From Bartonella sp. HY038 (GTDB taxonomy: Bacteria > Pseudomonadota > Alphaproteobacteria > Rhizobiales > Rhizobiaceae): 64,000 bases of DNA. Of this stretch, positions 37,290 through 64,000 are shown one piece after another. Location of the stretch: positions 2,954,001-3,018,000 of the forward strand of contig NZ_CP059725.1 of the NCBI RefSeq assembly GCF_014117425.1. The letters are read 5' to 3'. Below the pieces are notes generated by a model. It did not search any database. It saw only the letters and a list, made by a program, of their open reading frames with translations, and had not been told where the DNA came from. The first letter of the stretch is position 1. Each line of letters begins with the position of its first letter. The translations under genes and the position numbers were made by a program.

Positions 37290-37292
37290 TTT

Positions 37293-42491: not shown

Positions 42492-42560
42492 CGAGTCCTC
42501 CTGCATACAAATATAAAGATAATCTATCTCAATGTATTTATATTGTCCATAATATTTTTT

Positions 42561-42572: not shown

Positions 42573-42604
42573 AAATCATATTTATCCAGTGGGAGGATAC
42601 ATAA

Positions 42605-42697
42605 ATGAGGAAAAAATCTAAAACGCAATACATTTTTCATTCATATGGGGAAGCTGTCCTTTGGGGGAAACTGCAATTGGCAGCATGGGAGGGGTAA
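42605..42697 (+). CDS. 30-codon leader ORF coupled to madL
   Basis: A strong GGGAGGAT (42591-42598) precedes an ATG that opens a 30-residue basic/aromatic peptide (MRKKSKTQYIFHSYGEAVLW...). Its TAA abuts the madL ATG (TAAATG), and the madL ribosome site GGGAGGGG lies in its last codons. The design looks like translational coupling or a leader. The peptide has no recognised family. Confidence 0.55.
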   Translation: MRKKSKTQYIFHSYGEAVLWGKLQLAAWEG

Positions 42698-43862: not shown

Positions 43863-43873
43863 AGAAGTTGAAT

Positions 43874-44599: not shown

Positions 44600-46633
44600 C
44601 TATTTTAGCGGCTGTAAATAGGGCAAAGAGCGCAATTTTTGTATTGCTTGGTTAAGTGCATAAATAAGCGTCAATAGCGGATATGCAAGCTTTGCAAATT
44701 CACTATCAGCAAAATCTTGTTCAGCAATAATGGTCGCCATACTGGCAAATTTGCTGAACCCCGCCTGTTGAAGGATAGAACCAGCCTTTTGCAAATTATC
44801 CTTATATCGTTGATTTGCAAAACCAATTTCAGCAATAGATTGAATTTGGTCCAAAGCATCAGCAAGAACAAAATTTGCGCGATCACTTTGTTGAAAGTCA
44901 AAGCGCTTATTTTGAATAGCGTTTAAAAATCGATGCCAACTCCAATTTTTATTGGCAGTTTTGCCATCTAGCCCTAAATTTTCAATCATATTTTTGCAAA
45001 CAACCGCAATTGGCCGCAAGGCAAAGCGCCCTTGCTCAACAACAACATTAGCGACAATCGCATCAACTTTATTGCCTGAATGTAATTCAACCGCAATAAT
45101 GCGCGCTTCCTTATCACTATTATGATCCAATGTTAGCGCCAACCATTGGCCATTACTATCCATAATTGGCCAGATCACTTGTTGACGTAAATCATCAAAA
45201 TAATATTCAAAATTATTGCTTGGCACTAGCAAAACGGGTTGTATTGTCGGGGCAATATTATGAAGTCCTTGCATAAAAGCCTGTTGTAAATCATCAGCCA
45301 AAACCTGCCAATCGCTATAGGCACAAGCAAGATCGGTATAGGTGCCAGTAAAAAGCTTGACATCTTTTGCTATAACGCCTTGCGACATTGATAAACGCCC
45401 TTGGGGGGATGCCAAAGCGCCGGTTAAAGTCAACTGGCTGCGGCTCAAATCCCTTGGTGATTTGCCAAATAAATGCCCAGTATAATAAGCACTATTAGGT
45501 ATAAAGGAAGGATCGACACCCGATGGACGCGCCAAAGCACCACTATACCATTGTTGGTTTTGCGGCGCATAAAAAATTGTACTAACGCCGCGTGCGCCAG
45601 TGGTTGTGCGCCAAATTTCAGCCCCCATCCCCACTAAGTCAATATCACCAATTGGCAGATAATCTTGCCGATAAACACCTGCAAGTTTTATGAAATTTTC
45701 ATCATTTATATTGGTTTTTCTTAAAATACGCACCAACATGGCAATATGAGCAATAAATGGTAAATATTGCTCAATTTCAAATGATAAAGCGCGTTTTCTG
45801 CGCTCGCGAATACGATTTGCTAAAATGCGCAAAAGCGCCGATAATCTTGGTAAAGCATCCGCTCGTGATGATACAGAAAGCGCAAAGATACGCTCCTCTA
45901 AGGCTTTGGGGGCAATATTTAACCCTGTGCGCAAGGCATCTAATAAGGCTTCATCAACACTATCAAGAAAGCCGCTATCGGGTGCTTGCTTTTTAATGAT
46001 TACCGCGTTCTCTTCGCTGACATCATCATTAATGTGCCATTTTCTACGGGCAATCAATAAGGCGGCAATATGAAATATTTTGCGCTTAGCAGGCGATATT
46101 TTCGAGACCATCCCCTCTAGCCCCTGCCCCAAAAGATAGCAAATTTCCTCATCCATGATGAAAATACGAACGCTATTTTTTTCCTCTTTGACGATTGCCC
46201 CCTTAGCCGCAATATCATGAGCTGCCTGCCATCCAGCTTTGCCGGCAAAACGCTGTAGAATAGCTGATGAAAACTCGCAAATCTCGTCACGGGCGCTTTG
46301 GCTTTGCTCCAAGATTTGATCCTTGACTTGATCCTTGGCTCCAAGACCATCCTCAATCGGCAATGCGCGTAAAAATAATGTTGCTGCAAGCTTATGGCGG
46401 CAGACAGACGCGGCAGGGCAACTGCATTTTGCCTTAAGGGGGCCGGCTAAACCCATTGCAACGCTTTCGCCATCCGCCCTAACTGTTGCATTATCACCGT
46501 CACAATCGATAAATGTAACCTTGCCGCCCTCAATATCGCGGGCAGCACGACGCACCAACCCCTTATTCGCTAAAAGTTCAAGCGCACTTTCGTCAAAGGC
46601 TACTAAAGCTTGATGGAGAGCGAGCGATATCAT
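44600..46633 (-). CDS. yehQ: SWIM zinc-finger protein (YehQ-like)
   Basis: This is a 677-aa protein. A SWIM zinc-binding motif sits near the N-terminus: C70-x-C72-x5-C78-x-H80 in KAKCSCPAASVCRHK. The remaining ~590 residues are mostly helical with no catalytic motif that I recognise. The ATG at 46633 overlaps the VWA gene's TGA (ATGA at 46630-46633) and is preferred over the open frame to 46657. It is the last gene of the ATPase-DUF5682-VWA-SWIM operon, the same order as E. coli yehL-M-P-Q. SWIM domains in other proteins bind nucleic acid or protein partners; its target here is unknown. Confidence 0.85.
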   Translation of the reverse strand: MISLALHQALVAFDESALELLANKGLVRRAARDIEGGKVTFIDCDGDNATVRADGESVAMGLAGPLKAKCSCPAASVCRHKLAATLFLRALPIEDGLGAKDQVKDQILEQSQSARDEICEFSSAILQRFAGKAGWQAAHDIAAKGAIVKEEKNSVRIFIMDEEICYLLGQGLEGMVSKISPAKRKIFHIAALLIARRKWHINDDVSEENAVIIKKQAPDSGFLDSVDEALLDALRTGLNIAPKALEERIFALSVSSRADALPRLSALLRILANRIRERRKRALSFEIEQYLPFIAHIAMLVRILRKTNINDENFIKLAGVYRQDYLPIGDIDLVGMGAEIWRTTTGARGVSTIFYAPQNQQWYSGALARPSGVDPSFIPNSAYYTGHLFGKSPRDLSRSQLTLTGALASPQGRLSMSQGVIAKDVKLFTGTYTDLACAYSDWQVLADDLQQAFMQGLHNIAPTIQPVLLVPSNNFEYYFDDLRQQVIWPIMDSNGQWLALTLDHNSDKEARIIAVELHSGNKVDAIVANVVVEQGRFALRPIAVVCKNMIENLGLDGKTANKNWSWHRFLNAIQNKRFDFQQSDRANFVLADALDQIQSIAEIGFANQRYKDNLQKAGSILQQAGFSKFASMATIIAEQDFADSEFAKLAYPLLTLIYALNQAIQKLRSLPYLQPLK

Positions 46634-47775
46634 GAGGATATAACTCCCCCTAGCCAATCTGCCAACCTATCTGGTGTAAGTGCCGCCACCTCCATACCAG
46701 CCTTTGCCAAGCGTTGTGCCATGCTTATATCATAATCAACAATACCATCATCATTAAGGGCTGCAACGCCAAGCATTGTTACTTGCGCACTAGCAAGACG
46801 GCGAATAGCTGCCAATAATTTAGCGGGTGAACCACCTTCACAAAAATCGCTAATTAACACAAAAATGGTTTGGCGTGGTTGCTCGACCAATTGCTCACAA
46901 TAATTCACCGCCATGCCAATATCGGTACCACCACCAAGTTGCACCGACATAAGCACCGAAACAGGATCAGCAAGTTGATCGCTCATATCAACAATGCGCG
47001 TATCAAACAGCACCAACTTTGTTTTAACCGATGAAAGACCACCTAAAATAGAAGCCATGATAGCGGCATAAATAATAGAGCTGGTCATTGATCCCGATTG
47101 GTCAACACATAAAATAATAGTCTTGGAGAAATAGGATCTTGATCGCGAATGAAAGCGCAGCTTATCAGCAATAATGCGGCGATTAACAATATCATAATTT
47201 TTAAGATTATCGCGAATGGTTGCCCGCCAATCAAAATCCTGCATCCGCCGTAAATGGCCGCGCCGAAAACGATTACGCCGCCCTGATGCAGCGCGCTCTA
47301 AGCGCAGTTTTAAGCGCTTTTTTATATCTTCGATAATTTTTTTGGCAATATCGCGAATAGTCGCTTGAATAGCGGGATTGGCTCTATCCTTATAAAGCAT
47401 CAAGCTACGCAAAAGATCTGTGTTCGGAGTTAACGTTTTTAAAGTTTTAGGATCGCTCAATAATTCGGTCATGCCAAGATTGTGCAAAGCATGCCCTTCA
47501 ACCACTTCACATACGGATTTTGGAAAAATCCCACGCAATTGCTCTAGCCAATCAATTGGCTTAACACCACTTGAATCGCGACCTCCTAATGGGCTTTTTT
47601 TCGCATTTTCCTGGCGTAATCCTCTTTGTTTTAATTCGCGTGAATAAAGATAATCAAAAGCTTGGTCGCGCTCAATATCAACACCTCCAAGCTTACAATC
47701 ACTGCCTAGTCCCGTTTCACTATAGCGGCCAAGCACAAGGCGCCAACGGCGTAAACCTTCAACCGAATTGGTCAT
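46630..47775 (-). CDS. yehP: VWA-domain protein (YehP-like), MoxR partner
   Basis: This 381-aa protein has a C-terminal von Willebrand factor A domain starting around residue 218. The metal-ion-dependent adhesion site is complete: DQSGS at 225-229, T284 in GGGTDIG, and D310 in LISDFCEGG. The N-terminal half is basic and helical. MoxR ATPases typically work with such MIDAS proteins to remodel or load clients; the ATPase is encoded two genes upstream in the same operon. It overlaps DUF5682 upstream and the SWIM gene downstream by 4 bases each. Confidence 0.9.
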   Translation of the reverse strand: MTNSVEGLRRWRLVLGRYSETGLGSDCKLGGVDIERDQAFDYLYSRELKQRGLRQENAKKSPLGGRDSSGVKPIDWLEQLRGIFPKSVCEVVEGHALHNLGMTELLSDPKTLKTLTPNTDLLRSLMLYKDRANPAIQATIRDIAKKIIEDIKKRLKLRLERAASGRRNRFRRGHLRRMQDFDWRATIRDNLKNYDIVNRRIIADKLRFHSRSRSYFSKTIILCVDQSGSMTSSIIYAAIMASILGGLSSVKTKLVLFDTRIVDMSDQLADPVSVLMSVQLGGGTDIGMAVNYCEQLVEQPRQTIFVLISDFCEGGSPAKLLAAIRRLASAQVTMLGVAALNDDGIVDYDISMAQRLAKAGMEVAALTPDRLADWLGGVISS

Positions 47776-50195
47776 ATAAGCTGCTCCTCCTGCATTTGCG
47801 CCAATACATCTTGCTCAAGAGCCAATCGTTGTAATACCGTGTTTTCATCAAGGCTAGAATGAAGCAATAAAAAATCTTCCTGATGATAATATTTACCAAT
47901 ATTTTTACCAAGCCGATCCAATTCATCTGGATCCAAGCGGCTAAAGGCCAAGCGCAAAAAGGGTAATATTTCAAGGAAACTATCGTCATCAAAACTCGTC
48001 AGCAGCATATCTGCCTTTTCCATTAATTGCGATACACGCCATAATAATTCACGCGAAATCGTAATCACCCCATGAAGCCAACCAACGCGCTCTTCACTCG
48101 TGCTATAAGCTGCCTGTATTTCCCCTGCAAAACGCTCAACCAATTGTTCATCACTTATTTGGCCATTAAGACAAGCAAGGGCGGCAATAGCACCACGTAT
48201 GACGGGCGGCGCATCGGTATTAGTGAGTAAATTTGCAATTCTTTCCTGAAATATTTCCCCATCAAGCTTTGTTGCTTCCCGTTCACTTAAAATAAGCAAT
48301 TCCCGTAAATTCGCTAATGCATCAACAAGAGCCATGCTTTGTTCGTTGTCAGCATGAATAATATTGGGTAGTAAAAACATGGCGCGGCGGTAGCAAATGG
48401 TAATTAAATCACGCACCACTTGCTCATCATCCAAAGCCAGCCATTTACGCGCTTGCCATAAGGCGAGCACCGATTTTAACCCATCAACAACACTTACAAG
48501 ATTAGCATCTGCAATAATTTCTTGTTCAATAAGCGGTAATATTTGCTTTGCAGCCCCTGATAAACCAGCTTCGCAAGCATTAATAAAAAGCCTAACAGCG
48601 CTTGCCGTCTCCCCACCATGCCCATTTTCTTTCAAGGCAGTAATATTGTGAAATAATTGCAACAATAGCGATTTTTGTAATGTGTCACTTTCACTTGCAA
48701 GCTCGATTAAACGCGCCTCGGTCAAGGGTGACCATTGAATGGTCCAGCTTTCAAATAAACGATCTGTTGCATAACCATTGCTAAAATCTGGCCCAGCGGT
48801 GCGACTAGCAAATTGCACATTTAAAAACTTCATTCCATGTAAAAAGCGGCTAATAGCGCGATGTTTTGGTTTGCGATAAATATCAAGAGTACGATTGCGT
48901 GCCTCCCCATCATCAATCTTAATACCTAACACACGCGCTTTAGCAAAAAAATCGCGTAAAAGCGGTGGCACAGCTGCTTTTGACGATATTGCACCAATGG
49001 TAGAACCCGTTAAAAACGAATAAAATTCGGCTAAGATTCCACTGCCTTCGCCACCTTCATGCCCTTTTAGTAAAGCGGTGCGTAAAGCATCTATAATATC
49101 ACTGCGCATTGGCCCTTTATGGCCACGCAACTGCGCCAAGCTATTGGCCATTTCCAACGCATTTACTAAAGCTGGAAATGCGATACGCTCATGGCGCATA
49201 TCTTTGCGCAAATGCGCAATAAATTCGATTACAATTTTTTCTGCAATAATCTCAAAAACGTTACTTGGCTTTGTTTCATCTTCAACAATGCAATTTTGTT
49301 GTTGCCAAAGCCGATCATAATACCAAGGAAAAGGCAAACCACTCATATAACCCGTAAGGGCATTTAACTGACGAAAGCCATAGCGGATCAAATATGATTC
49401 CTCTAGCGTTTCCACGATCTTTGCTTGTTGTGGCGCACGCACCAAATCCAGTAAAACAGGTGCATGGAAACCACCAACAATAATTACGATCGGACCAGTT
49501 TTTTTAGCGCTCTCGCGGGCAATAATTGCCGCCATTTGCGCTTCACGCTCCAAAGTGCCATCACGTTGCAAAAGTTCATCATTGGTAGATTGACGCATAT
49601 GATCACAATAAACACCAATCCCAGAAAATAGACCGCGCCAATCGCTTTCACCAAGCTGTGTTTCAAACATCTGGTCCCATAATTCATCACCATCGCGGCA
49701 ACCAATTTTTTGACAAAGTGCCTTGGTATAATCACTACTATCAAAATAGTCCTTGCTTAAGGGAACGAACTTATTGGCAATATGGCTTTGTTTTTCTTCA
49801 TCACTTTCATCATCGTTAATGTCATTATCGTCAGATGTATCATTTTGAAATCGGGAAAAAATGGGTAGATCAATAAAATGCGTCTCGACCTTGTTTTGGT
49901 GTGCCCATAATAAGCCAATATATTCAGGGCTATGGCTACAAATTGGATAATAGCTGCTACCTAACGCATTTTTAGAGGGAAAAGTAACAATGGCGACTGG
50001 CGGAACAGTGCCATCATCAATGATCTGATCTATAAGGCGATCATAATGATTAGGGCCTTCAATCAGCACCGTTTTAGGCTTGATTTCGTCAAGTAATAAA
50101 CGCACAGCAAAAGCACATGCCGGACTATGATGGCGTACCGGCACAATGGTAATCTGCAACTTTTCATCATAAAGAAAAGACGGATGTTTTGTCAT
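47772..50195 (-). CDS. yehM: DUF5682-family protein (YehM-like)
   Basis: This is an 807-aa protein. The N-terminal ~260 residues carry VRHHSPAC (20-27), VLIEGPNHYD (43-52), an acidic insert rich in Asp/Glu (about 125-145), a helix R-E-A-Q-M-A-A-I-I and GGFHAP (about 241-246). The pattern H..S...L....P..VLIEGP... then R...M...I........GGFHA resembles the TraB/TIKI/EreA hydrolase superfamily, so a catalytic N-terminal domain is likely. The C-terminal ~500 residues are helical and repeat-like. The start at 50195 overlaps the ATPase stop (ATGA), whereas the frame is open to 50237. It is the second gene of the operon. Confidence 0.85.
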   Translation of the reverse strand: MTKHPSFLYDEKLQITIVPVRHHSPACAFAVRLLLDEIKPKTVLIEGPNHYDRLIDQIIDDGTVPPVAIVTFPSKNALGSSYYPICSHSPEYIGLLWAHQNKVETHFIDLPIFSRFQNDTSDDNDINDDESDEEKQSHIANKFVPLSKDYFDSSDYTKALCQKIGCRDGDELWDQMFETQLGESDWRGLFSGIGVYCDHMRQSTNDELLQRDGTLEREAQMAAIIARESAKKTGPIVIIVGGFHAPVLLDLVRAPQQAKIVETLEESYLIRYGFRQLNALTGYMSGLPFPWYYDRLWQQQNCIVEDETKPSNVFEIIAEKIVIEFIAHLRKDMRHERIAFPALVNALEMANSLAQLRGHKGPMRSDIIDALRTALLKGHEGGEGSGILAEFYSFLTGSTIGAISSKAAVPPLLRDFFAKARVLGIKIDDGEARNRTLDIYRKPKHRAISRFLHGMKFLNVQFASRTAGPDFSNGYATDRLFESWTIQWSPLTEARLIELASESDTLQKSLLLQLFHNITALKENGHGGETASAVRLFINACEAGLSGAAKQILPLIEQEIIADANLVSVVDGLKSVLALWQARKWLALDDEQVVRDLITICYRRAMFLLPNIIHADNEQSMALVDALANLRELLILSEREATKLDGEIFQERIANLLTNTDAPPVIRGAIAALACLNGQISDEQLVERFAGEIQAAYSTSEERVGWLHGVITISRELLWRVSQLMEKADMLLTSFDDDSFLEILPFLRLAFSRLDPDELDRLGKNIGKYYHQEDFLLLHSSLDENTVLQRLALEQDVLAQMQEEQLI

Positions 50196-51286
50196 GTGAG
50201 TTTTAAGGCTCGCGCTGCGCTGTAAAATTCCCTCCAAGGGCCTTTTTTACCGGCGCGATCTTTAACTATATAATCAATATAGGCTTTAAATCTTTTGCCA
50301 TCCTCCGGCTCATCTTTTAAAATAACCCCTTGTATTTGGTGGGCGATATGGGCGCCCGATACACTGCCATTATCCAAAAAGGCCGCTTCCAGCGCGGCTG
50401 CTTGCATAACATTTACCGCTTCTGCCGTTGACATAACCGCATCAGGTTTGGTGAGCGCTATCCCCTCACGCGTGCGGCCAGTGCGCAAATCCTGAAAAGT
50501 TTCAACCAAAATATCTATTGTTGCATCTATATTGCTAACCTCAATGCCAAGCGGCGCTAACCTCGCATCAAGCTGTTGGCGCACCAAGGCGCGCTCTTGC
50601 TCGCCATCACTGATTGGATGAACAATTTCAAAATTAAAACGTCTTTTTAAAGCGCTCGACATTTCATTTACGCCGCGATCACGTAAATTGGCCGTTGCAA
50701 TAATATTAAACCCCGGCGCTGCACGCAAAGCATCATTTGAACCAAGTTCAGGTATTGCTAAAGATTTTTCGGACATGATAGAAATCAGCGCATCTTGCAC
50801 TTCCGGCGGGCAACGGGTAATTTCTTCAAAGCGGACGATGCGCCCTTCTTTCATAGCTGAAAAAATCGGGGAAGCAACCAGCGCTCGTTCACTTGGCCCT
50901 TCAGCAAGCAGCAAAGCATAATTCCATGAATAGCGAATATGATCTTCACTGGTACCAGCAGAACCTTGCACAATAAGCCCTGAATGACCGCTAATGGCGG
51001 CGGCTAATAATTCTGATAGTAGCGATTTTGCCGTGCCCGGCTCTCCTGCCAACATCAGCCCTTGCGCACTCATCAAGGAAACAATAGCACGATCAATTAA
51101 ACTATCTTCGCCATAAATCTTACGGGAAATGCCCTTTTTTTCATCACCAACAATGAAACACCGAACAAAACGCGGCGACAACAGCCAACCTTTCGGCTTT
51201 GGTAAATCATCAAGGCTTTTTAAGCTTTGCAATTCATCCGCATAGATTTCTTCAGCAGGTTGCCGCAAACTGGCCTTTTTTTCCAT
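50192..51286 (-). CDS. yehL: MoxR-type AAA+ ATPase (YehL-like)
   Basis: This is a 364-aa AAA+ ATPase of the MoxR group. Walker A is GEPGTAKS (81-88), Walker B is IVRFEE (150-155, with Glu in place of the usual Asp), sensor 1 lies in IIATANLRDRG (about 196), and arginine-finger residues in SSALKRRFN. AAAGG about 9 bases upstream supports the ATG at 51286. It leads a four-gene operon with 4-base overlaps at every junction, implying a fixed-ratio complex with DUF5682, VWA and SWIM proteins. It is divergent from the DUF4132 array across 181 bases. Confidence 0.92.
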   Translation of the reverse strand: MEKKASLRQPAEEIYADELQSLKSLDDLPKPKGWLLSPRFVRCFIVGDEKKGISRKIYGEDSLIDRAIVSLMSAQGLMLAGEPGTAKSLLSELLAAAISGHSGLIVQGSAGTSEDHIRYSWNYALLLAEGPSERALVASPIFSAMKEGRIVRFEEITRCPPEVQDALISIMSEKSLAIPELGSNDALRAAPGFNIIATANLRDRGVNEMSSALKRRFNFEIVHPISDGEQERALVRQQLDARLAPLGIEVSNIDATIDILVETFQDLRTGRTREGIALTKPDAVMSTAEAVNVMQAAALEAAFLDNGSVSGAHIAHQIQGVILKDEPEDGKRFKAYIDYIVKDRAGKKGPWREFYSAARALKLT

Positions 51287-51402
51287 AGACTATGACCTTT
51301 ATATTATAAATATAAGAATACACTAATATTATTTTAGAAAAATTATAATTCTTGTGAATTAAAACATATACTAAAAACTATAATTTACATTGATTTGTAG
51401 TC

Positions 51403-51430
51403 TTGCCGCCTCATTGAAAATAGATATTAT
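51403..51430 (+). promoter_or_regulatory. Putative promoter of the DUF4132 array
   Basis: TTGCCG (51403-51408), a 16-base spacer and TATTAT (51425-51430) lie about 38 bases before the first DUF4132 ATG, followed by an AAAAGGGG ribosome site. The spacing fits a sigma-70-type promoter; the match is modest. The rest of the 181-base divergent region is very AT-rich and must also serve the ATPase operon. Confidence 0.4.
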
Positions 51431-51467
51431 ACTTTGCAAGGATCACGTCAATTAAAAAGGGGTAGCT

Positions 51468-54400
51468 ATGAACAGCTTAAAGCTAGGCAGCAATTTGACT
51501 GTTGAAGATACGCCACCCAAAGTTTCATTGGATCGCTACCGGATTACCTCTGGATTAAATAGTATGCGCATGGGAGATTTAACTTTAGCACCAGCCTTAT
51601 GTGATTACATAGAAACTGGCAAAAATGAAGCAATCTTGCTCCAAGCTAGAGGTAAGGCTACAACAACCTATTGCAACCTACATAATGGCAAAATACTATA
51701 TGCATTAAATTATAAATGGCAACCATTAGCTTTTATACGCTTAGGCAAAGTTTTAGCTTCATTATCGCCAATAACAAGTACAAATTATAAGATGCGCGGC
51801 ACTAGCATATCACCAGATTGGTGGCGTTATAGCGTATATTACTTGCAAAATTTAGATCATAGCTCAATTGCGGCTGCCTCTGATGAATTATATGCATTAA
51901 TTCAAAAACCCGGAAAACTTTTGTTAGAATTGGCTGATATTGGCGGCTTAGGCGTTGAAGATATTTTTGACGTATTTATTCACAACTATAATGGTTATCG
52001 CAATGAAGTAATCCTAAAAGACTTCTACGGCATTGAAGATTGGTTCATAGAAAATAGACAAACGATCATCTCTCTCGCCAAGAAACTTCCAAGCAATAAT
52101 ATGATTGAATTTTGCGTTTCTCTTTACAAATTGAATCTCGTCGAACCTTTTACTGATTTCCTAATTGAAGAAACAATGAGTAAAAGCAAAACTGTTCGCC
52201 AAAAAGCATTACTTTCACTAAACCATGCTGATAAAATCATATTAAAAGAACGCATATTGCAGCTTTTTCCAACACAGCCGAGTGCGAACCAAATTTTATT
52301 AGTAAATGCAGTGATCGTACTTTTTAACGAGCAAGCAAAATCAATATTGGAAATATGGAAAAACGATAAAAATCCACCCAAACTTAAAAAAACAATTGAA
52401 GAGCAGTTAAACTTCCAAAACGCCACTGCGCACTCAGCTCAACAAGATTTTTCAAATAGTGGCGGTTCCTATCTTGCTTTAGATGGCAGTATCGTCACTA
52501 TTCCTGCTTATGACAAGGCAAAGGAACAAGTCCATTTCGCTATTAATCCTATTGATGAAAGCTATTTTTTACCGGTTTTTGATGCACTTGCAAATTATAA
52601 TCACCATTTTGATAAATCCTTGGCAAGACGAAATCCAAACGATAAATGGCATTGGACTAAAAACGCAAAAAAACTTGACAAACAGCAGGTCAATAAAGAG
52701 CTGCACGCTATTTTATCGGGAAGTTTAGATAAAGCCTTATCGAGCCATAACTTATTTGACACCCATCAAAAGCGCAATTTTGATACCTCAGGCTTGAAAG
52801 AATTTGCGCAATGTAAAGACCTTTCGCTTTACCAACTCATGCTATTGTTAAATATGGAACATTATGTTGATCATTTATCGAATTTAAGCACTTTTGGGGA
52901 AAATATTTTTGGTCCTGTTATTTTAAAAAAAATGCGTGAAATTGGCGATTGGCGAGTTTTAAACCATATTTGTATTAAACAACAAAGACGCCCAATTTTG
53001 GAGCACCTTTTAACTGCAATGGAATGTTATGATTTGCCCCTTATTCCATTTATAAAGGCTGAAGATCTTTGGACGCTTGTTGCCGAAAATCTTGATCTTC
53101 TTGACCAAGCCTTTAATATTGCTCCTCCAATTGATAATGTCAGCTATCGTTTTGATATTGCATTTTATCTACTAACACTATTACCCAAAGTTCCAATGCG
53201 TTATGCGACAGCCCTCATACTGATGGTGACTGGTAACAACTTGAATGGCAATAGGATAACTCGGCAAGAAAGACAGCAAGCTCGTACGTTATTAGCAGCC
53301 TCACCACAGCTTGATCCTGCTATTTCAGGGCTTTTAGAAAATGAACAAAAAGAAATACGCATTAAAGCAGCCGATTGGCTAAAAAGCCGTAAAGCCGTTT
53401 CGCAAATTCCTGCTTTGCAAGCAGCACTTAAAAAAGAAAAAAATGATGCAGTACGCGGAGCACTTCTTTCTGCACTTCAACATTTAGGTGATGATATTTC
53501 CAGCCACTTTGTAGCAGAAAAATTACTAAGCGAGGCACAAAAGAGATTGGAAAAGGCCAAGGGAAAAGAACTTGATTGGTTTCCTTTTTCCCAATTACCG
53601 CAGGTTACTTGGAACAACGGCAATGCCGTTGACCCTCTGATTATCCGTTGGCTATTAATCCTTGCCACAAAGTTAAAGCAACCGCAAGGCAATCCGATGA
53701 TAACCTTGTGGCTTGATCAATTTACAAAAGAAAGCGCCCATACCCTTGGGGCTTTCATTGTGGAAGCGTGGATTGCCTATGACACGCCAATGACAACCAA
53801 TGAAGAAGCGACAAGTTTTGCTATAGCTCATATTGATCAGCGCTTACAAACCAATTTACAATTAGTTAAGGCAGCACCACAATCTGCATCTTTCTATACA
53901 ACCGACCGCGATTTACTATTTGAAGAACTTCGCCATGAAAAATTAGGCAAATACAAACAAAGCGCGATTGACAGTAAGGGTATTTTAGCCCTCGCAACCC
54001 GTACTGATGGCGCAATCATTGCAGCCATTGGCAGTAGCTATATTAAAAAACATGGCAAGCGCACCGCCCAAGCCAAAGCAATCATTGACATGCTGGCAGG
54101 AAATCCGGCCCCTGCTGCTATCCAAGCAATTTTAGCGGCAGCAACCCGCACCAAACAAAAAACGGTGCAAGACCATGCACGCCAAGCCATTAATGACATT
54201 GCTGAGCAGTATGGTTGGACCTTAGACGAATTGGCTGATCGCACTATTCCAACGGCAGGGCTTGATGATAATGGCGAAGCAGAGCTTGCTTGTGGCAAGG
54301 GGCGAATTTTTAAACTTAAACTCAATGAGCAAGGCAATCTTATTATTTTTAACGATAAGGGCAGCCAAATAAAAAGCTTGCCAACCGCAAGTAATGCGCT

Positions 54401-55220: not shown

Positions 55221-55310
55221 CGTTATAAAACCATCACATATTTTTAATTTAGCACGCGTAAAATTAACAATTAAACTCGTTTGTCATATTATCATCTGAA
55301 AGGGATTAAG

Positions 55311-58300
55311 ATGAGCCTATTTAGAAAACTATTAAATAAATTTTCTAATAAATTCAACAAAGCAACCCTTTATGACCAAACAAGTGAAACCATAATTGTA
55401 AAGCGTAAATCTTTTGAAAAGCTGCTTGGAAGTTTAGGGCTAGAAGATAAAGACCTGATCCAAGACCTATACACCTATGTTGAAACAGGACAAAACCAAG
55501 CCATATTGCTAAAAGCCGCCCAATCAACCGATAATTTCTATTGGTATGATACCGGACTAATGCTCTATCTTCCGCAAATTTTTGACTATAATTGGCAACC
55601 GCTTGGTTACCTAAGAATGGCCAAGATAATAAAAAATTTGATCCGTCACCCTCTTTACTCCAGCCACGTCTATGGTAGCAAGACATCACCCGATGAATGG
55701 CGCTATTTTGTAACTTGTGCCATACTTGCGAGCAAAGACCGCAATGCACCGCCATCTGGGGGTAGCCTACAAGGCTATAAAATAGATTGGCAGCAATTTG
55801 AGCAATTGGCCAATTTATTCAATGCTTCTATGGCTGAAATATTCGATCTTCTGGTCACGGACCATCCCGCTATGCGTTTTTCGCAACAAATACGCAATCC
55901 TGACGATTTAAAGCAATGGTTTATTGATAATAAGCAAGAAATCATTGCACTTTTAAAAACAATTAAAGGCGAAAACCTCACCAATTTTTGCAAGCTCATT
56001 CAAACCCTTAAACTTTGTGATGACTATTTAGACGAGCTTTTGCAAATCAGCATGAATAGTTCAAAAGCTGTAAGAAGCGCAGCTCTTACAGCGATTTCAG
56101 CTGCCGATAAAAACCTATTTAAAGAAAAAATAGTTGCAATTTACCCTGACCAATCACCAAGCAACCGAGCTTTGCTAGCTTTAACAACGGTTACTATTTT
56201 AGAACGTGCGGCACTACCAATATTGCTAAATTGGCAAAGCACCGAAACAGCGGCAAAACCAAAAGAAACCATTAAACAACAATTGTCATTTTTAGGCAGC
56301 AATGGCGTTGAAGCTGATGATGGACTAAATAGTGATGACCGCTTAACCTATACGGCTCTTGACGGCAGTGTCATTACCGTACCGCCATGCGTATTTGATG
56401 ATGAGCAAAAGCAAAGTGAACTTGGTGATATTGATGAAATATTTTATACTAATTTTGCCAATGCGATTGATAATTATAACCAACACCTAGCGCAATTAAA
56501 AGCAAAAAGAAAAGAAAATGGTGGTACTTGGCATAGTTATGACGGCAAACAATTAGATAAAAAAATGATGTTGACGCAGCTGCGCAATGTTATGAAAGGC
56601 GAAATTGGTAAGGCTAAAAATTTAAACAATGCTTTTTTTATTTTATGGAGAAAAGACGTTGATCTTTCGGGAATAAGTGAATTTGTTGCCAATCCGCAAT
56701 TGTCACTTTATCAGCTTTTGGCATTATTGGTATCCACTACCACTAACCCACTTTATTACTTGTGTAATAGTGATCAACAATCCATCTTTCGACAAGCAAT
56801 CATCAGTAAAATTAAACAATTAAACGATCTGCGTGCTTTTGAGCGCATTTGGGTGAATAAGTTAAAACAACAATCTTTTTTACGTCAATTATTAACAGGC
56901 ACCTATTATAGTAGCGACCAATTTGATTTTCTAAACGATTGCGCTGAGCAATCAAGCAAGGATGCTGTTTCGTACTTTATTTTTGATGGCTTTGATCTAT
57001 TTGATGAAATTTTTGGATTAAAACCATCGCAAAATAAAGATCACTATGATGTTTACAAGGCTTTTTTACTATTAGAAATGCTGCCTAAAATACCAAAGCG
57101 CTATGCAACGGCATTAATGATAGTAGCAACCGGTGGCGCCTTATTTAGTGGGAGCATCAATAAAAACACTAGAATTTTAGGCCGCAATTTATTAGAAAGC
57201 ATGCCACACATCAATCCTGCTATTGCCAAATTATTGCAAGACGGACAACAAAATACGCGAGTGGAAGCGGCGCAATGGTTAGTTATACGCAAGGCAAAAG
57301 ATGAGCTTCCAGCGTTAAAAACAGCTTTAAAAAAAGAAAAAAGCGATGTTGCCCGCGCCGCCATGATATCAGCACTTGGCCAATTGGGCGGTGATGTTAG
57401 CGAATATTTGGCACCCGACAGATTATTATCAGACGCACAAAAAGGTTTGGAAAAAAATAAGGTCAAAGGCATTGACTGGTTTCCTTTTGACCAATTGCCA
57501 AAAGCTGAATGGAAAGATGGCAGCGCGGTTGAGCCGATTATTTTACAATGGTGGATTGTGCTTGCTGCCAAACTAAAAGAGCCACAAGGCAATGCCATGC
57601 TAAGCCTTTGGCTTGATCAATTAACTCCAGAAAGTGCCGATAAATTTGGTATTTTTGTTGCAAAAACATGGGTCGCCCATGACACATTTGCGGTTGGCAG
57701 TGATGAAGCCAATGCCTATGCATCTGCGCGCATTGATCAAGAGCTGCAAAGCAACCAACAAGCTGTAAAAAAGCACCCGCAATATGCTGAATACTATACC
57801 ACAGACCGCGATTTGCTCTTTCAAGAGCTTCGCCGCCATGTATTGGGTAATTATAAACAAAGTGCAATTGACGCAAAGGGTATTTTAGCCTTGGCGGCAC
57901 GCGGTAATGGTGCAGAAATTGCTGCTATTGGCAGTCAATATATCAAAAAACATGGCAAACGTGTTTCGCAAGCCAAAGCAATTATTGACATGTTAGCGGC
58001 AAATCCTTCCACTGCAGCCATTCAAATTGTATTAGCGTCGGCTAACCGTACCAAACAAAGGACAGTTCAAGAGCATGCGAAAAAGGCGATTGATGAAATT
58101 GCTGCAAAATATGGTTGGAGTTTAGAGGAACTAGCAGAACGCACCATTCCAACCGCTGGACTTGATGAAAATGGTTGTGCTGAACTTGAATGTGGTAAGG
58201 GCCGTATTTATAAATTGCAACTCAATAGCCTTGGTAATTTAATAATTTTAAATGATAAGGACAAAGAAGTTAAAGCCCTGCCAACACCTAATCCTAATGA

Positions 58301-59123
58301 TGAAGAAGAAAAAGCTGAAATTTCCGCATCGAAAAAATTTGTCACCAATGCCAAAAAAGAATTAAAACAGGTTGTTACCTTGCAAACCGAACGGCTTTTT
58401 GAAGGCATGTGTTTAGGGCGGCTTTGGCCCAAGGCCGATTGGCAAGATTTTCTTTTTAACCACCCAATAATGCGGCAAATTATTTGCTCATTGGTATGGA
58501 TTGGCCTTGATAAAGACGGCAATAAAATCCAAACATTCAGGCCACTTGAAGATGGCAGCCTTACCGATAGCAATGATGAAGAAATATCACTTGATGCCAT
58601 TCACATAATCAAGCTTGCGCATATCACTTTACTTAGTGAAGACGAAACCAAGGCTTGGCGAACGCATCTTAATGATTATGAAGTGAAACCAGCTTTTATG
58701 CAGTTTCGTGAAAATCCTTTTGTCCTTACTGAGGACATGAAGAATTTAACCGAAATCAATGATCGTCGAGGTTGGATGATTGAAACCTTTAAACTACGGA
58801 CCTTAACCAGTAAATATGGTTATGAACGCGGACAAGCTGAAGATGGTGGTTGGTTTACCACCTATACGCGCCGCTTTGCTAATGCCAATATTGTCGCTAT
58901 CATTGAATTTACTGGCAATTATTTTCCTGAAACGAGCAGGCCTGCTGCCTTGCTTAATATTAGTTTTTCTAAATATTCAAGTAACGGCTATTATTGGGGC
59001 CAGGGTATGACATTGGGTAAAATTCCACCTGTATTATTAACCGAAATCTTGGCCGATTATTACGCCATTGCGGCGGCAGGTACTGGCTTTAATCAGGATT
59101 GGGAAAAACTAACCTCATTATAA
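55311..59123 (+). CDS. DUF4132 protein, array copy 2
   Basis: This is a 1270-aa paralogue of copy 1, 90 bases downstream on the same strand. The frame opens at 55281 but GAAAGGGAT favours the ATG at 55311 (MSLFRKLLNKFSNKFN), a basic amphipathic N-terminus absent from copy 1. Shared blocks run in the same order: NWQPLGYLRMAKI, SPDEWRYFV (one W replaced by E), the HEAT-like ALKKEKSDVARAAM, RTIPTAGLDENGCAELECGK, TERLFEGMCLGRLW and GWFTTYTRRFANANI. The central ~350-600 region is the least similar between copies. Function as for copy 1 is unknown. Confidence 0.85.
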   Translation: MSLFRKLLNKFSNKFNKATLYDQTSETIIVKRKSFEKLLGSLGLEDKDLIQDLYTYVETGQNQAILLKAAQSTDNFYWYDTGLMLYLPQIFDYNWQPLGYLRMAKIIKNLIRHPLYSSHVYGSKTSPDEWRYFVTCAILASKDRNAPPSGGSLQGYKIDWQQFEQLANLFNASMAEIFDLLVTDHPAMRFSQQIRNPDDLKQWFIDNKQEIIALLKTIKGENLTNFCKLIQTLKLCDDYLDELLQISMNSSKAVRSAALTAISAADKNLFKEKIVAIYPDQSPSNRALLALTTVTILERAALPILLNWQSTETAAKPKETIKQQLSFLGSNGVEADDGLNSDDRLTYTALDGSVITVPPCVFDDEQKQSELGDIDEIFYTNFANAIDNYNQHLAQLKAKRKENGGTWHSYDGKQLDKKMMLTQLRNVMKGEIGKAKNLNNAFFILWRKDVDLSGISEFVANPQLSLYQLLALLVSTTTNPLYYLCNSDQQSIFRQAIISKIKQLNDLRAFERIWVNKLKQQSFLRQLLTGTYYSSDQFDFLNDCAEQSSKDAVSYFIFDGFDLFDEIFGLKPSQNKDHYDVYKAFLLLEMLPKIPKRYATALMIVATGGALFSGSINKNTRILGRNLLESMPHINPAIAKLLQDGQQNTRVEAAQWLVIRKAKDELPALKTALKKEKSDVARAAMISALGQLGGDVSEYLAPDRLLSDAQKGLEKNKVKGIDWFPFDQLPKAEWKDGSAVEPIILQWWIVLAAKLKEPQGNAMLSLWLDQLTPESADKFGIFVAKTWVAHDTFAVGSDEANAYASARIDQELQSNQQAVKKHPQYAEYYTTDRDLLFQELRRHVLGNYKQSAIDAKGILALAARGNGAEIAAIGSQYIKKHGKRVSQAKAIIDMLAANPSTAAIQIVLASANRTKQRTVQEHAKKAIDEIAAKYGWSLEELAERTIPTAGLDENGCAELECGKGRIYKLQLNSLGNLIILNDKDKEVKALPTPNPNDEEEKAEISASKKFVTNAKKELKQVVTLQTERLFEGMCLGRLWPKADWQDFLFNHPIMRQIICSLVWIGLDKDGNKIQTFRPLEDGSLTDSNDEEISLDAIHIIKLAHITLLSEDETKAWRTHLNDYEVKPAFMQFRENPFVLTEDMKNLTEINDRRGWMIETFKLRTLTSKYGYERGQAEDGGWFTTYTRRFANANIVAIIEFTGNYFPETSRPAALLNISFSKYSSNGYYWGQGMTLGKIPPVLLTEILADYYAIAAAGTGFNQDWEKLTSL

Positions 59124-59269
59124 GACTGCATTATTACAATACAGCAAAATACAAAAATATCTATGACTTAATATAGTTTAAAAAAGTCATAAAATACGCA
59201 TGATTAAACTTAAAAATATTAAATATACAAACAAATTTGAATGCATATAACTAACGGGAAGAGATTATT

Positions 59270-62200
59270 ATGAGCGAAGAGACTAATAAAAATTTGCGGC
59301 AGGCGGGCAAACTAACCATTAATCGCAAACAAATATTTAATTTTTTAAAAAACCTTTATATTACCAATAATGAGCTTCTTGAGGCTTTAGCCGATTATAT
59401 TGAAAGCGGAGACAATGAGGCCATTTTACTTTCAGCTTCACAAGCGCCTAATGCGGGGCATTTATATATCTATGAGATAACAGATCCATTGGTGGGTGCA
59501 CTCAGCAATCTGTGGCAACCGCTTGCTTATATTCGTTTAGCTAAAGTTTGTTCGGCTTGGTCAGCCCCTCTAGATAACAAAGAATATCAAGTTTTTGGTA
59601 GTAAAGCATCACCCGATTGGTGGCGCTATAGTGTAACCTTTGCGAATATTTGCCATATGTTTAATGCTCGCTATGCAACAAAATTACGAGATAATGGTTT
59701 TGAGCTAACAAAAGAACGGCTACTTGAACTTGCCAAAGCTGGCGGCGCCACAAAAGCAGATATACTCGATGTGCTTTTGGCAACACCTAGGGGGTATGGC
59801 GAAGAGTCTGAAATTCCAAACTTTGTTGGCATCAGTCAATGGTTCAAGGATGAAAGGCTTGAAATAACGGCGCTAGCTCCTCAATTATCTGCTGAGCAAT
59901 TAGCGCGTCTATGTGCGGCCGTTCACCAATTAAACTTTAGCAATGAATATCTTGATGTTTTAGTTGATGCGTCACTTAATAAAGCCAAATCTGCACGCAG
60001 CAGCGCCGTTAATGCGCTTATCGGCGTTGATAAAAATGCCCTTAAAACACGATTACGCACCATTTATAGCAACCAAACGCCGGCCAGTCGTGCCTTGCTC
60101 GTTTCAACCGCTGTCACATTATTGGGCGATGAAGCGAGCGATTTATTAAATGAATGGGCAAAAGCGGAAGATAATGCAAAGACGAAAGAAGCTATTGAAC
60201 AACAACTTGCCTTTTTAAATATTGATACAACTGACCAGCAAAACTTAACCGATGATGCATCGCGTTATATTGCCCTTGATGGCACGATTGTAACAATTCC
60301 CCCTTGTGAATATGAAAGTGAAGAAAAACTATTTGAATTAGGCACGATTGATGAAATTTTTTATGACAATTTTTCCAAAGCAATTGATAATTATAATACT
60401 CATGTAGCTGCTATAAAAAGCGGGGAAAAAAAGACCCACAGTCATTTGCGCGCTAAAGAAGCCAAACCATTGGATAGGGAAAAAACTGTCAACCAATTGC
60501 GTCAATTGATGAGCGGCAATAAAACAAAAACTAATCTTGTAGCAGAAGTGCTCGCTCTTATTGATAGCAAAGATTTTGACACATCTGGAATTGCGCAATT
60601 CATTGGCAATCCTGCCTTATCACTCTATCAAATATCACTTTTAGCGCAGGCTGATGATATGATTGCACATCGCCATTTAATGTATTATTTCAATAGGCAA
60701 GGCTCAGTATATCAGGCTATGTTCAATAAAATTAATGCACTTGGCGATTGGCGTGCTTTTGATCACCTTTGGATGATAAAATTCAACCAATCACCATTTA
60801 TTTTTCACTTTTTAGAAAAAGATTATTATAAAATACCCTTCCGTGATTTTTTACAAAATTATGCCAGCAAAGCTGGAAAAGACGCTTTTTGGCCGCTTAT
60901 AATGGATAGCATTTCCTTGCTTGATGAAGCTTTTGGTCTTGCCCCCAAGCGAAGCCAAAAGCCTTTCGAAATGGATTTTGCATTTATGCTTTTAGCGATT
61001 TTACCCAAGATTCCAAAGCGTTTTGCAACGCCATTAATGGTTATGGCAACAGGTAATACAGTTAATAATAGCACGATGAACAAAGCCATTGTGCAGCAAG
61101 CCCGCAATTTTCTAAATGATTTGCCAAATCTTGACCCTGCCATCGCCAATTTATTATTAGACGGCCAGCAATCAACCCGCATTGGTGCCGCCAATTGGCT
61201 AAAAAACCGCAATGCGAAAACAGAAATTCCCGCTTTAAAAGCTGCATTAAAAAAAGAAAAAAATGATGTCGCTCGCGCAGCCCTACTTTCTGCCCTTGAT
61301 GCCTTGGGCGAAGATATTTCTAGCCATTTTGCGCCAGAAACGCTGTTAAAAGATGCGCAAAAAGGCTTAGAAAAAACTAACATAAAGAGCATTGACTGGT
61401 TTCCTTTTGACCAATTATCCAAAGCGAATTGGAAAAATGGTGCCGCCGTTGATCCTATGATTTTGCAATGGTGGGTAACATTAGCCGCAAAATTAAAGCA
61501 GCCGCAAGGCAATGCCATGATAAGCCTTTGGCTTGATCAACTCGCCCCAGAAAGTGCTAACCAATTTGGCCTTTTTGTTGCCAAAACATGGGTGGCACAT
61601 GACACCGTTGCGTTAGGTGATGATGAAGCCAATGCCCATGCCGCCGCCCATATTGCCCAACGTTTACAACAAAACCAACACTATGTAGCACGTCATCCGC
61701 AATTGGCTCAATATTATACAATAGATGAAAACCTATTATTCCAAGAACTGCGCCGTGAGGTTTTGGGTAATTATCTTCAAAGTGCGGTTGATGCCAAAGG
61801 TATTTTAGCTCTTGCTGCACGGGTAAATGGTGCAGATATTGCCGCCATTGGTAGCCAATTTATTAAAAAGCATGGCAAACGCGCATCACAAGCCAAAGCC
61901 ATTATTGATATGCTGGCTGCAAATCCAGAACCTGCGGCTTTACAGGTTGTGTTGGCTTCCGCCAACCGCACCAAACAACGCTCGGTGCAAGAACATGCAC
62001 GCCAAGCCATTGACCAAATTGCTGAAAAATTTGGTTGGACCTTGGATGAATTGGCAGATAGAACCATTCCATCTGCCGGTCTTGATGAAAATGGTGAAGC
62101 CGAACTAGAATGTGGCAGAGGCCGTATTTATACATTAAAATTAAATGACGATAGCAATCTTATCATTTTAAATGATAGTGGCAAAGAAGTGAAAGCCTTG

Positions 62201-63043
62201 CCTGCCGCTAATCCCCAAGATACGCAAGAAAGTGAAGAACTGGCCAGCGCCAAGAAAATTGTCGCCAATGCCAAAAAAGAGTTAAAGCAAGTGATTGCGT
62301 TACAAACAGAGCGGCTTTTTGAAGCCATGTGTTTAGAGCGTATTTGGCCTGTTGCTGATTGGCAGGATTATTTATTTAACCATCCGCTTATGCGCCGTAT
62401 TGTTAGCTCGTTAATTTGGATTGGTCTTGATAAGGATGGCAATCAAAAATTGCTATTTAGACCAATGGAAGATGGCAGTTTAACCGATAGCGATGATAAT
62501 ACTGTAACCCTTGAGGGTGTATTTGAGATTAAACTTGCCCATGTTCAACTCATTAGTGATGAGGAAGCAACGGCTTGGCGCAACCATATCAAGGACTATG
62601 AAATTAAGCCCGTATTTCAGCAATTGCGCCAAGATTTGCCGCAAATAACCGATGATCTTAAAGCAGAAAATGAAATTATTGATCGCAAAGGTTGGATGAT
62701 TGAAACGTTTAAATTGCGTGCAGCAGCCAAAAAATTTGGCTATGTTCGCGGTGAAACCGAAGATAGCGGCAGCTTTTTTAACTATAGCCGCCGCTATGCG
62801 GGAGCTGATCTTATTGCCTATATTAATTTTACCGGCAGTTATGTGCCAGAAGAAAATATTGCCGCAGCTTTAACTGAATTGCGTTTTGGCAGAGATAGGG
62901 GTGGCAACTACAATTATGGTGGGGAAATTCGTTTGCAAGATGTTCCACCTGTATTGTTAGCTGAAACCATAGCCGATTATCACGCAATTGCTGCAGCAGG
63001 AACCGGCTTTATTGAGAATTGGGAAGATCAAGCGGCTTTATAA
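59270..63043 (+). CDS. DUF4132 protein, array copy 3
   Basis: This is a 1257-aa paralogue, 146 bases after copy 2, with a GGGAAGAG ribosome site. It keeps LWQPLAYIRLAKV, SPDWWRYSV, ALKKEKNDVARAALL, RTIPSAGLDENGEAELECGR, TERLFEAMCLERIW and PPVLLAETIADYHAIAAAGT. Copies 2 and 3 look more alike than either does to copy 1 in the 700-1050 region (for example IDWFPFDQL and APESA.QFG.FVAKTWVAHDT versus TKESAHTLGAFIVEAWIAYD), suggesting stepwise duplication. A palindromic hairpin follows the stop. Confidence 0.85.
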   Translation: MSEETNKNLRQAGKLTINRKQIFNFLKNLYITNNELLEALADYIESGDNEAILLSASQAPNAGHLYIYEITDPLVGALSNLWQPLAYIRLAKVCSAWSAPLDNKEYQVFGSKASPDWWRYSVTFANICHMFNARYATKLRDNGFELTKERLLELAKAGGATKADILDVLLATPRGYGEESEIPNFVGISQWFKDERLEITALAPQLSAEQLARLCAAVHQLNFSNEYLDVLVDASLNKAKSARSSAVNALIGVDKNALKTRLRTIYSNQTPASRALLVSTAVTLLGDEASDLLNEWAKAEDNAKTKEAIEQQLAFLNIDTTDQQNLTDDASRYIALDGTIVTIPPCEYESEEKLFELGTIDEIFYDNFSKAIDNYNTHVAAIKSGEKKTHSHLRAKEAKPLDREKTVNQLRQLMSGNKTKTNLVAEVLALIDSKDFDTSGIAQFIGNPALSLYQISLLAQADDMIAHRHLMYYFNRQGSVYQAMFNKINALGDWRAFDHLWMIKFNQSPFIFHFLEKDYYKIPFRDFLQNYASKAGKDAFWPLIMDSISLLDEAFGLAPKRSQKPFEMDFAFMLLAILPKIPKRFATPLMVMATGNTVNNSTMNKAIVQQARNFLNDLPNLDPAIANLLLDGQQSTRIGAANWLKNRNAKTEIPALKAALKKEKNDVARAALLSALDALGEDISSHFAPETLLKDAQKGLEKTNIKSIDWFPFDQLSKANWKNGAAVDPMILQWWVTLAAKLKQPQGNAMISLWLDQLAPESANQFGLFVAKTWVAHDTVALGDDEANAHAAAHIAQRLQQNQHYVARHPQLAQYYTIDENLLFQELRREVLGNYLQSAVDAKGILALAARVNGADIAAIGSQFIKKHGKRASQAKAIIDMLAANPEPAALQVVLASANRTKQRSVQEHARQAIDQIAEKFGWTLDELADRTIPSAGLDENGEAELECGRGRIYTLKLNDDSNLIILNDSGKEVKALPAANPQDTQESEELASAKKIVANAKKELKQVIALQTERLFEAMCLERIWPVADWQDYLFNHPLMRRIVSSLIWIGLDKDGNQKLLFRPMEDGSLTDSDDNTVTLEGVFEIKLAHVQLISDEEATAWRNHIKDYEIKPVFQQLRQDLPQITDDLKAENEIIDRKGWMIETFKLRAAAKKFGYVRGETEDSGSFFNYSRRYAGADLIAYINFTGSYVPEENIAAALTELRFGRDRGGNYNYGGEIRLQDVPPVLLAETIADYHAIAAAGTGFIENWEDQAAL

Positions 63044-63065
63044 TTTTTTAGTCTCTACCAATAAA

Positions 63066-63108
63066 GATTTAGAGCATTTTTCAGCGTAAGCGGTAAATGC
63101 TCTAAATC
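63066..63108. repeat. Rhizobial-type interspersed palindrome
   Basis: A perfect 14-bp inverted repeat, GATTTAGAGCATTT ... AAATGCTCTAAATC, with TTCAGCG in the loop. The AGAGCATTTTCAGCG core is familiar from intergenic palindromes in rhizobial genomes. It could act as a terminator or mRNA-stabilising hairpin between array copies 3 and 4. Confidence 0.55.
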
Positions 63109-63141
63109 CTAAAATATTTCCCCAAAAGCTAAGGAACAATT

Positions 63142-64000
63142 ATGAGCCTGCTTAAGTCGATCAAAGAATTTTTTTATCCCAAAAACGCGTTGAATAGCGA
63201 TAGTAACAGTGACAGTGACGGCTCTCGCGTGCAAGCAGGCACAAACACACTTAATCTTGAACATCTAAAAAAAATATTTGCAACAGCAGGATTAGACGAT
63301 CCACACTTAATCAATGATTTATGCCGCTATATGGAAAATGGGCAAAATGAAAGCGTCTTATTAAGGCTATCCCCTACATCATCCCATGGTTCATTTAGTT
63401 TTTATGAGATCAACAAATCATTTACTGCAGCCTTAGGCAATGTTTGGCAACCCTTTGCTTTTATTCGCCTCGGCAAAATTTTTGCGCAGTTGCGACCGAT
63501 AGGAGGCAAAAATTTTGTACATTTTGGCAGCGAATTATCGCCCGATTGGTGGCGACACTGCCTTACCTTTGCTTATATGCCATGCAATAAACACTGCACA
63601 TTTATTTTTTCAGGTGATCAACATAAAGGCTTAGAACTAACAGCACCTCGCCTTATTGAGCTAGCACATTTTGGTGGCGCAACAATAAATAATATACTTG
63701 ATGTTGTTTTAACCCTTACAGTCAGTCAATTTGGAGCAAATGAAGTCGATACATTTCCCGGTATTGAACATTGGCTTAAACAACAAAGCCAAGAGATCTC
63801 TCAATCCTGCGCCCATTTACCAACCAGACAATTTGCCCAATTGCTTGGCGTTATAGGTGGCTTTAACCTTGGTGATCATTATTTAGATATTCTTATTCCC
63901 GCATTGATGCAGAATACAAAAACTGTACACGGCAATGCCATTACCGCACTAACCAGTGCGAATAAAGATAAGGTGGTGAGTAAGCTGCGTGATATTTACG
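63142..64000 (+). CDS. DUF4132 protein, array copy 4 (partial, runs off the window)
   Basis: The frame is open from an ATG at 63142 (AAGGA at 63130-63134) to the window end, 286 codons without a stop. It begins MSLLKSIKEFFYPKN, a basic amphipathic start like copy 2, then a Ser/Asp linker (NSDSNSDSDGSR). It then shows the array's N-terminal blocks VWQPFAFIRLGKI and SPDWWRHCL, followed by helical segments such as AGGF/NLGDHYLDILIPALMQ. It is clearly a fourth paralogue whose C-terminal DUF4132 domain lies beyond base 64000. Confidence 0.85.
   Translation, partial: MSLLKSIKEFFYPKNALNSDSNSDSDGSRVQAGTNTLNLEHLKKIFATAGLDDPHLINDLCRYMENGQNESVLLRLSPTSSHGSFSFYEINKSFTAALGNVWQPFAFIRLGKIFAQLRPIGGKNFVHFGSELSPDWWRHCLTFAYMPCNKHCTFIFSGDQHKGLELTAPRLIELAHFGGATINNILDVVLTLTVSQFGANEVDTFPGIEHWLKQQSQEISQSCAHLPTRQFAQLLGVIGGFNLGDHYLDILIPALMQNTKTVHGNAITALTSANKDKVVSKLRDIY

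Follow-up and report, generated by a model that had tools for sequence, protein, structure and literature searches.

We examined a window of 64,000 nucleotides from Bartonella sp. HY038 (positions 2954001-3018000 of contig NZ_CP059725.1; the genome measures 3.6 Mb and is 99.9% complete), in which a minus-strand operon for a MoxR AAA+ ATPase, a DUF5682 protein, a VWA protein and a SWIM zinc protein lies divergent from a tandem array of DUF4132 genes. The reading that we favour, with a probability of roughly 0.4, is that DUF4132 is the diversifying recognition subunit of a five-part intracellular MoxR-VWA machine that acts through DUF5682. New here are the predicted likeness of DUF5682 to the ChaN/TraB superfamily, the divergence and apparent block exchange of the N-terminal half (N-half) of DUF4132 against a constant C-terminal half (C-half), and the placing of the seven array copies in one old clade. 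If the reading is true, the partners of MoxR-VWA chaperones would include a new type, an evolving receptor by which the target of the machine is selected. The corresponding yeh genes are present in nearly all E. coli genomes searched, and that locus becomes testable through its variable, recognition-like half, its more constant half and the enzyme fold predicted for DUF5682. The features have the following window positions (E-values in brackets):

44600-46633 (from ATG), minus strand: SWIM zinc protein (yehQ-like), CxCx5CxH found by pattern
46630-47775, minus strand: VWA protein (yehP-like; VWA_CoxE 7.9e-47) with a complete metal-ion-dependent adhesion site (MIDAS)
47772-50195 (from ATG), minus strand: DUF5682 protein (yehM-like; Pfam DUF5682 1.1e-103), an N-terminal alpha/beta domain and then a helical part
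50192-51286, minus strand: MoxR AAA+ ATPase (AAA_5 1.6e-34), labelled yehL-like by operon context only
51287-51467: divergent intergenic region of 181 bases between the MoxR operon and the DUF4132 array
51468-55220, plus strand: DUF4132 copy D1, 1250 amino acids (aa) (PF13569 1.2e-29)
55281-59123, plus strand: copy D2, 1280 aa from TTG (PF13569 2.8e-32)
59270-63043, plus strand: copy D3, 1257 aa (PF13569 1.3e-34)
63142-64000, plus strand: copy D4, 1269 aa in full, only its start inside the window
Outside the window, reaching about 14.5 kb further: copies D5-D7

The coordinates, the Pfam matches and the motifs agree with the four overlapping minus-strand genes described in the earlier note, and there is a 4-base overlap at all three junctions. 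The MoxR protein has the Walker A motif GEPGTAKS and a Walker B motif ending in E154-E155, and these motifs are kept in 85 of 85 aligned rows of type B (the class of the window, defined below). Walker B ends in E-E rather than D-E in all of these rows and in 5 of 5 rows of type A. Each of the MIDAS residues of the VWA protein (D225-x-S227-x-S229, T284 and D310) is 100% conserved across 81 aligned rows. The SWIM protein showed no Pfam match; its CxCx5CxH motif lies at residue 78 (numbered from a TTG start) and each of the four C/H positions is 95% conserved in 82 aligned rows. On the plus strand, three full and one partial DUF4132 paralogues had been reported as an array of at least four. This is correct, and a search of the whole genome extends the array to seven, with every one of the seven DUF4132 domains in a stop-free open frame. 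The genes are tandem and intact (1232-1280 aa, about 27 kb, intergenic gaps of 53-160 bases) and four of them extend partly or wholly past the window. D2 more probably starts at ATG 55311 and would then have 1270 aa, as its relative P0122 does.

We surveyed 398 genomes of the phylum for DUF4132 and DUF5682, which occurred in 11 and 14 genomes, respectively. By score, the matches to DUF5682 separate into type B with E-values of about 1e-98 to 1e-111 and type A with E-values below 1e-190 (a match in G246 of 19.3 bits was below the cut-off and is excluded from the counts). Type B was present in 9 of the 11 DUF4132 genomes and in none of the other 387. For eight of these nine genomes DUF4132 and DUF5682 lie a few kb apart and in the ninth (G167) they are on two contigs, near the contig ends; MoxR, VWA and SWIM were located in all nine by searching the fetched stretches. 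One genome (G154) carries two additional solitary DUF4132 copies. The distribution of DUF4132 is patchy, with 11/398 genomes in the phylum sample, 5/247 in the family and 1/2 in the genus.

A scan of named genomes with the type-B alignment left 80 loci out of at least 519 confirmed places. The five families are complete in 70 of the 80 loci, mostly in one operon, and because they recur jointly at this rate the association is well beyond chance. Per family the counts are 80 for DUF5682, 77 for MoxR, 75 for VWA and 73 each for DUF4132 and SWIM. Three of the ten incomplete loci (L056, L068, L086) are cut by contig ends, L092 has no VWA or SWIM gene within reach, L115 and L116 have no DUF4132, and three or four families are missing from L067, L071, L076 and L117. 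The order DUF4132-MoxR-DUF5682-VWA-SWIM is the most frequent (36 loci); DUF4132 comes last in 7 loci, all from Acinetobacter, and stands between SWIM and MoxR in 6. Complete loci span alpha-, beta- and gammaproteobacteria, a cyanobacterium, verrucomicrobia and planctomycetes. The E. coli equivalent that had been proposed (yehI/molR and yehL-M-P-Q) also holds the five families in one stretch: in K-12 this is yehF (WGR), yehH (molR, a pseudogene), yehI, yehK, yehL, yehM, yehP and yehQ. In E. coli the genes are co-directional with two or three DUF4132 genes in the 15 loci read and WGR at the start, whereas the array described here has seven divergent copies and no WGR found in D1-D3. The idea of one five-family system is supported, and the check on separate occurrence agrees: DUF4132 is near 73 of the 80 DUF5682 loci and the operon is found in 9 of the 11 DUF4132 genomes, although solitary DUF4132 genes exist. 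Strong amplification of DUF4132, which the earlier note took to be common in conflict or stress systems, is not common: a single DUF4132 segment is present in 53 of the 80 loci, the maximum within about 10 kb is three, and seven copies per operon are special to this genome among those seen. Gilliamella loci (L087, L101, L113) have two full or nearly full tandem copies and fragments upstream of MoxR, which the DUF4132 tree places as an independent duplication.

The proposed role of DUF4132 draws on how its two halves vary. Among the seven paralogues we observed 40-53% identity overall, 26-41% for the N-half and 49-69% for the C-half. Of 248 candidate close pairs, 5 were dropped as near-identical, and in 239 of the remaining 243 the N-half was the less alike. 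This count is no significance test, since pairs share members and the set was picked by high local identity, a criterion biased towards pairs that have a single conserved segment. In one such comparison (P0132/P0133) the identity falls to 56-67% in two neighbouring twelfths with flanks at 93-99%. D3 and its near-identical relative P0121 show 96 differences in residues 10-223, zero in 224-368 and few after that, and judged from the alignment the first ~223 residues of D3 are a block exchange. We tried the sibling copies as donors and rejected them: the P0121 block is 67% identical to that of D3 and at most 38% identical to all others in the set. Since D3's own block is the nearest, an allelic exchange fits better. 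D2 has a single divergent stretch (24 of 99 columns).

In the DUF4132 tree (75 rows, a quick search without bootstrap) the seven copies and their counterparts form one clade with a Shimodaira-Hasegawa-like approximate likelihood ratio test support of 100, adjoining mostly sphingomonad-like genes; the array therefore expanded in this lineage and is old. Bartonella sp. HY761 (NCBI: Alphaproteobacteria, Hyphomicrobiales) has named proteins that are 90-99% identical to the DUF5682 protein and to four of the DUF4132 copies, which marks the two genomes as closely related; DUF5682 differs at 12 of 807 positions. Counterparts at 90-98% were found for five of the seven copies, four in HY761 plus P0127, and D4 and D7 had no separate counterpart among the matches listed. 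A recent amplification of the array was considered and rejected, as the copies are only 40-53% identical and five have such counterparts.

For the variation within one species we searched a collection of 5426 E. coli genomes. The N-half of the DUF4132 gene that immediately precedes yehI in strain EcPF7, taken as a 1.2 kb query, found matches over 80% of its length in 681 genomes. Over the same fraction the C-half of this gene matched in 5272 genomes and a stretch of yehM in 5161, and for both of these no best match fell below 90% identity. For the first 900 bases of yehI there are 579 records at 80-90% identity and 1958 at 90-95%, and for the last 901 bases 0 and 294, respectively; these whole-collection counts are independent of the choice of strains for the following comparison. 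We computed mean non-synonymous (dN) and synonymous (dS) divergence from 6 to 21 strain pairs and obtained dN 0.052 and dS 0.284 for yehI codons 1-290 and dN 0.012 and dS 0.074 after codon 900, a contrast that is inflated by strains partly chosen for N-part divergence. For metG we found dN 0.001 and dS 0.122, and the mean dN was 0.004 for yehL, 0.008 for yehP and 0.016 for yehM and yehQ. The raised dS in the N-part of yehI indicates old or imported alleles. Across 11 intact upstream copies the lowest pair of the N block is at 58% identity with a median of 95%, and the C block is at or above 95% throughout. In this sample the E. coli N block thus has a deep split and stretches of local variation rather than a large number of alleles. 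In a non-random sample of 15 E. coli loci, with some stretches stopping before yehP or yehQ, DUF4132 is present in two copies in 11 loci and in three in 4, broken ones counted.

The model of D3 residues 60-1257, with a predicted local distance difference test score of 90.7, shows a long helical solenoid and then an alpha/beta domain containing the Pfam region. At E 0.01, HEAT_2 was matched by 14 of the 25 members scanned. The DUF4132 profile has matches near positions 605-679 to PDB chains of alphaRep and to others with HEAT in their names, and importins and other solenoids predominate in Foldseek and VIA, with low template modelling scores and middling Z values. DUF4132 is predicted to be a helical solenoid with a diverging N-half and a more constant C-half. 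The type-A loci offer a comparison. Type-A DUF5682 occurs in 7 of the 398 genomes, and this genome and G196 carry type B as well. In the five type-A loci (L027, L041-L044) MoxR-DUF5682-VWA is present in all five and the SWIM motif, by pattern, in four, and DUF4132 was not found. Both type-A loci that were scanned have DUF5691 by Pfam, one of them also with sub-cut-off HEAT-like matches, so that a HEAT-like DUF5691 seems to fill the DUF4132 slot in this sister operon. The Bartonella sp. HY038 example is at 3203-3210 kb (L027, DUF5682 at 3.2067 Mb) and reads SWIM, DUF5691, MoxR, DUF5682, VWA.

The N-domain of DUF5682 is ChaN/TraB-like by predicted fold and by profile. It has conserved H, E and D residues at strand ends and an invariant polar set, and is probably an enzyme or a metal/haem site. 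Both GxxH motifs are present in the three type-A rows inspected; type B has P33 for the first glycine and keeps H36 and H37 (residues numbered from TTG 50237). The likeness to the superfamily lies in the predicted fold of this domain and, less clearly, in its H-containing motifs. Unlike ChaN/TraB, DUF5682 has an extra long helical part and sits in an ATPase operon.

Because a variable/constant split with block exchange is typical of recognition subunits, we assign the choice of target to DUF4132 and the action itself to DUF5682. In this scheme the N-half of DUF4132 would bind a varying partner (the protein of an invader, of a rival, or different clients of the cell itself) and the C-half would dock on the MoxR-VWA pair. 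ATP-driven remodelling could then switch on or load DUF5682, the likely acting end, and the SWIM zinc protein may be a further adaptor. With the recognition subunit duplicated into seven retained versions here, one machine might serve several specificities. The N-half variability, the block exchange and the DUF5691 substitution lend support to the description of DUF4132 in the earlier note as interchangeable client-binding or sensor subunits; the part on common amplification is not supported. We advance only tentatively a narrower version, in which each DUF4132 protein is a polymorphic receptor in the cytosol, its N-terminal recognition block exchangeable and its transducer part constant. Such receptors would gate a ChaN/TraB-fold effector powered by MoxR-VWA, and this lineage would have a repertoire of seven of them for one machine.

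Several observations speak against the favoured reading. Two of the 11 DUF4132 genomes (G200 and G007) have no DUF5682. D1, D5 and D6 show no exchanged block, and D1 and D6 differ more in the C-half. The 11 E. coli copies form only two N-block groups at 85%, EcPF7 against the other ten. The dN of yehM and yehQ slightly exceeds that of the yehI C-half, which is therefore not unusually constrained, and dN/dS is below 1 in every part of yehI, so that positive selection is unsupported. With respect to defence, yehM is near-universal in E. coli (matched in 5281 of the 5426 genomes), whereas defence genes are typically patchy. Among the eight proteins compared with PADLOC two had a match, both weak (PDC-S62 at 7.6e-5 for the SWIM protein and HEAT-ARM_XIII at 0.0058 for D1). 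A defence role is plausible and only mildly favoured, because the set is patchy in the phylum yet nearly universal in E. coli and the PADLOC matches are weak. For the bpMoxR type the window MoxR scored 22 bits against a curated cut-off of 27, and a general Pfam scan of the eight proteins at E 0.001 gave no VMAP, iSTAND, FtsH or beta-propeller match. The MoxR-vWA ternary conflict systems described in PMC7159879 are like the window in combining a MoxR-vWA pair with dedicated, partly variable components; DUF5682, SWIM and DUF4132 are extras of the window, and none of the three is mentioned in the main text of that paper.

Rather unlikely, though the best placed of the other explanations, is an insertion of metal or cofactor, in which MoxR-VWA installs metal or haem in a ChaN-like DUF5682 in the manner of CoxD-CoxE and DUF4132 is a scaffold or client. 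Molybdate is suggested by molR, an older gene name, the VWA protein is of the VWA_CoxE type, ChaN binds haem (title of 2g5g) and MoxR proteins take part in the maturation of metal enzymes, CO dehydrogenase among them (PMC3893208). CoxD-CoxE and other MoxR-VWA maturation pairs share with the window an AAA+ MoxR with a VWA_CoxE-type partner; unlike them, no metalloenzyme client gene was seen adjoining the window operon. The nine genes scanned on the far side of the operon comprise a malonate decarboxylase/transporter set with the regulator belonging to it, one protein that had no match and an adhesin with Big domains; no molybdenum or haem enzyme is among them. PMC8533742 found moeA and moeB unchanged, and a client or scaffold role leaves the block exchange of the N-half unexplained.

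We consider it improbable that the set is induced by DNA damage and acts at DNA, with a WGR-bearing DUF4132 binding DNA ends. PMC11039860 and PMC3978071 list molR among LexA/SOS genes, and PMC8533742 names drA0165-drA0166 (DUF4132) and dr2173 (WGR) as DdrO targets, with DRA0166 and DR2173 rising after mitomycin C and not when irrE is deleted. In E. coli EcPF7 a one-mismatch LexA-type site (L136 4392-4407) lies between metG and the DUF4132 genes and ends 9 bases ahead of the first of them, but the L136 locus has ten such sites against 7.9 expected. The exact alpha-type site GTTCN7GTTC is absent in the window and the exact gamma-type site in L048. Across 76 upstream regions out of 81 loci, pooled across classes, we counted 0 exact and 16 one-mismatch alpha-type sites (0.6 and 20.0 expected) and 2 exact gamma-type sites, both in the same region, with 20 one-mismatch ones (0.4 and 12.6 expected), no clear general excess. 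LexA control as a general trait was rejected on these near-expected counts and kept as a feature of E. coli only. WGR was found in 4 of the 25 scanned DUF4132 members and, in the Pfam scan, in none of D1-D3.

A loosely constrained locus, in which the N-half varies since its sequence matters little and copies are gained or lost neutrally, has slightly less to commend it still: it could claim the dN/dS values below 1 and the at least one cassette gene annotated broken in 7 of the 15 sampled E. coli loci, but the raised dS of the yehI N-part, as for long-kept or imported alleles, the seven deep, intact paralogues and the sharp breakpoint in D3 count against it.

The literature on DUF4132, DUF5682, DUF5691 and the yeh names assigns no function to the system in its accessible part, subscription papers lying mostly outside the search, and none was found there on DUF5682, DUF5691, or SWIM combined with MoxR and VWA. 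PMC3893208 gives YehL as one of seven MoxR subfamilies, and both it and PMC7159879 describe MoxR ATPases, several with VWA partners, as chaperone-like factors for particular complexes. The E. coli DUF4132 region is described as a resistance transposon site in one sublineage (PMC9334617), and a Listeria single-gene insert is said to share a domain that frequently accompanies WGR (PMC5541211).

A search of 72556 plasmid records returned 35 matches, some of them chromosome-sized, which says little on mobility. One of 50697 phage records matched: MT835988.1 (14 kb, unannotated, from human faeces) contains a DUF5682 relative at 10626-12755 with 26% identity over 92% coverage and may be a misassigned bacterial contig. 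Past the array there is a partly DUF2515-like open reading frame (ORF), and split VgrG-like genes and a HEPN_LA2681 gene lie a few kb after the last DUF4132 copy; the VgrG-like parts (Phage_base_V with Gp5_trimer_C; Phage_GPD) and HEPN_LA2681 lie at 24-2596 and 3869-4426 of L009. On the other side, malonate decarboxylase genes (alpha subunit, MdcE, CitG and acyltransferase), a MadL-MadM transporter and a GntR regulator (window 36366-44560) adjoin the operon. Further away are a gene for a large protein of surface type, which carries Big domains and begins like BapA (30244-33672), and more long minus-strand ORFs (16008-28096), where regularly spaced small ORFs suggest further repeats.

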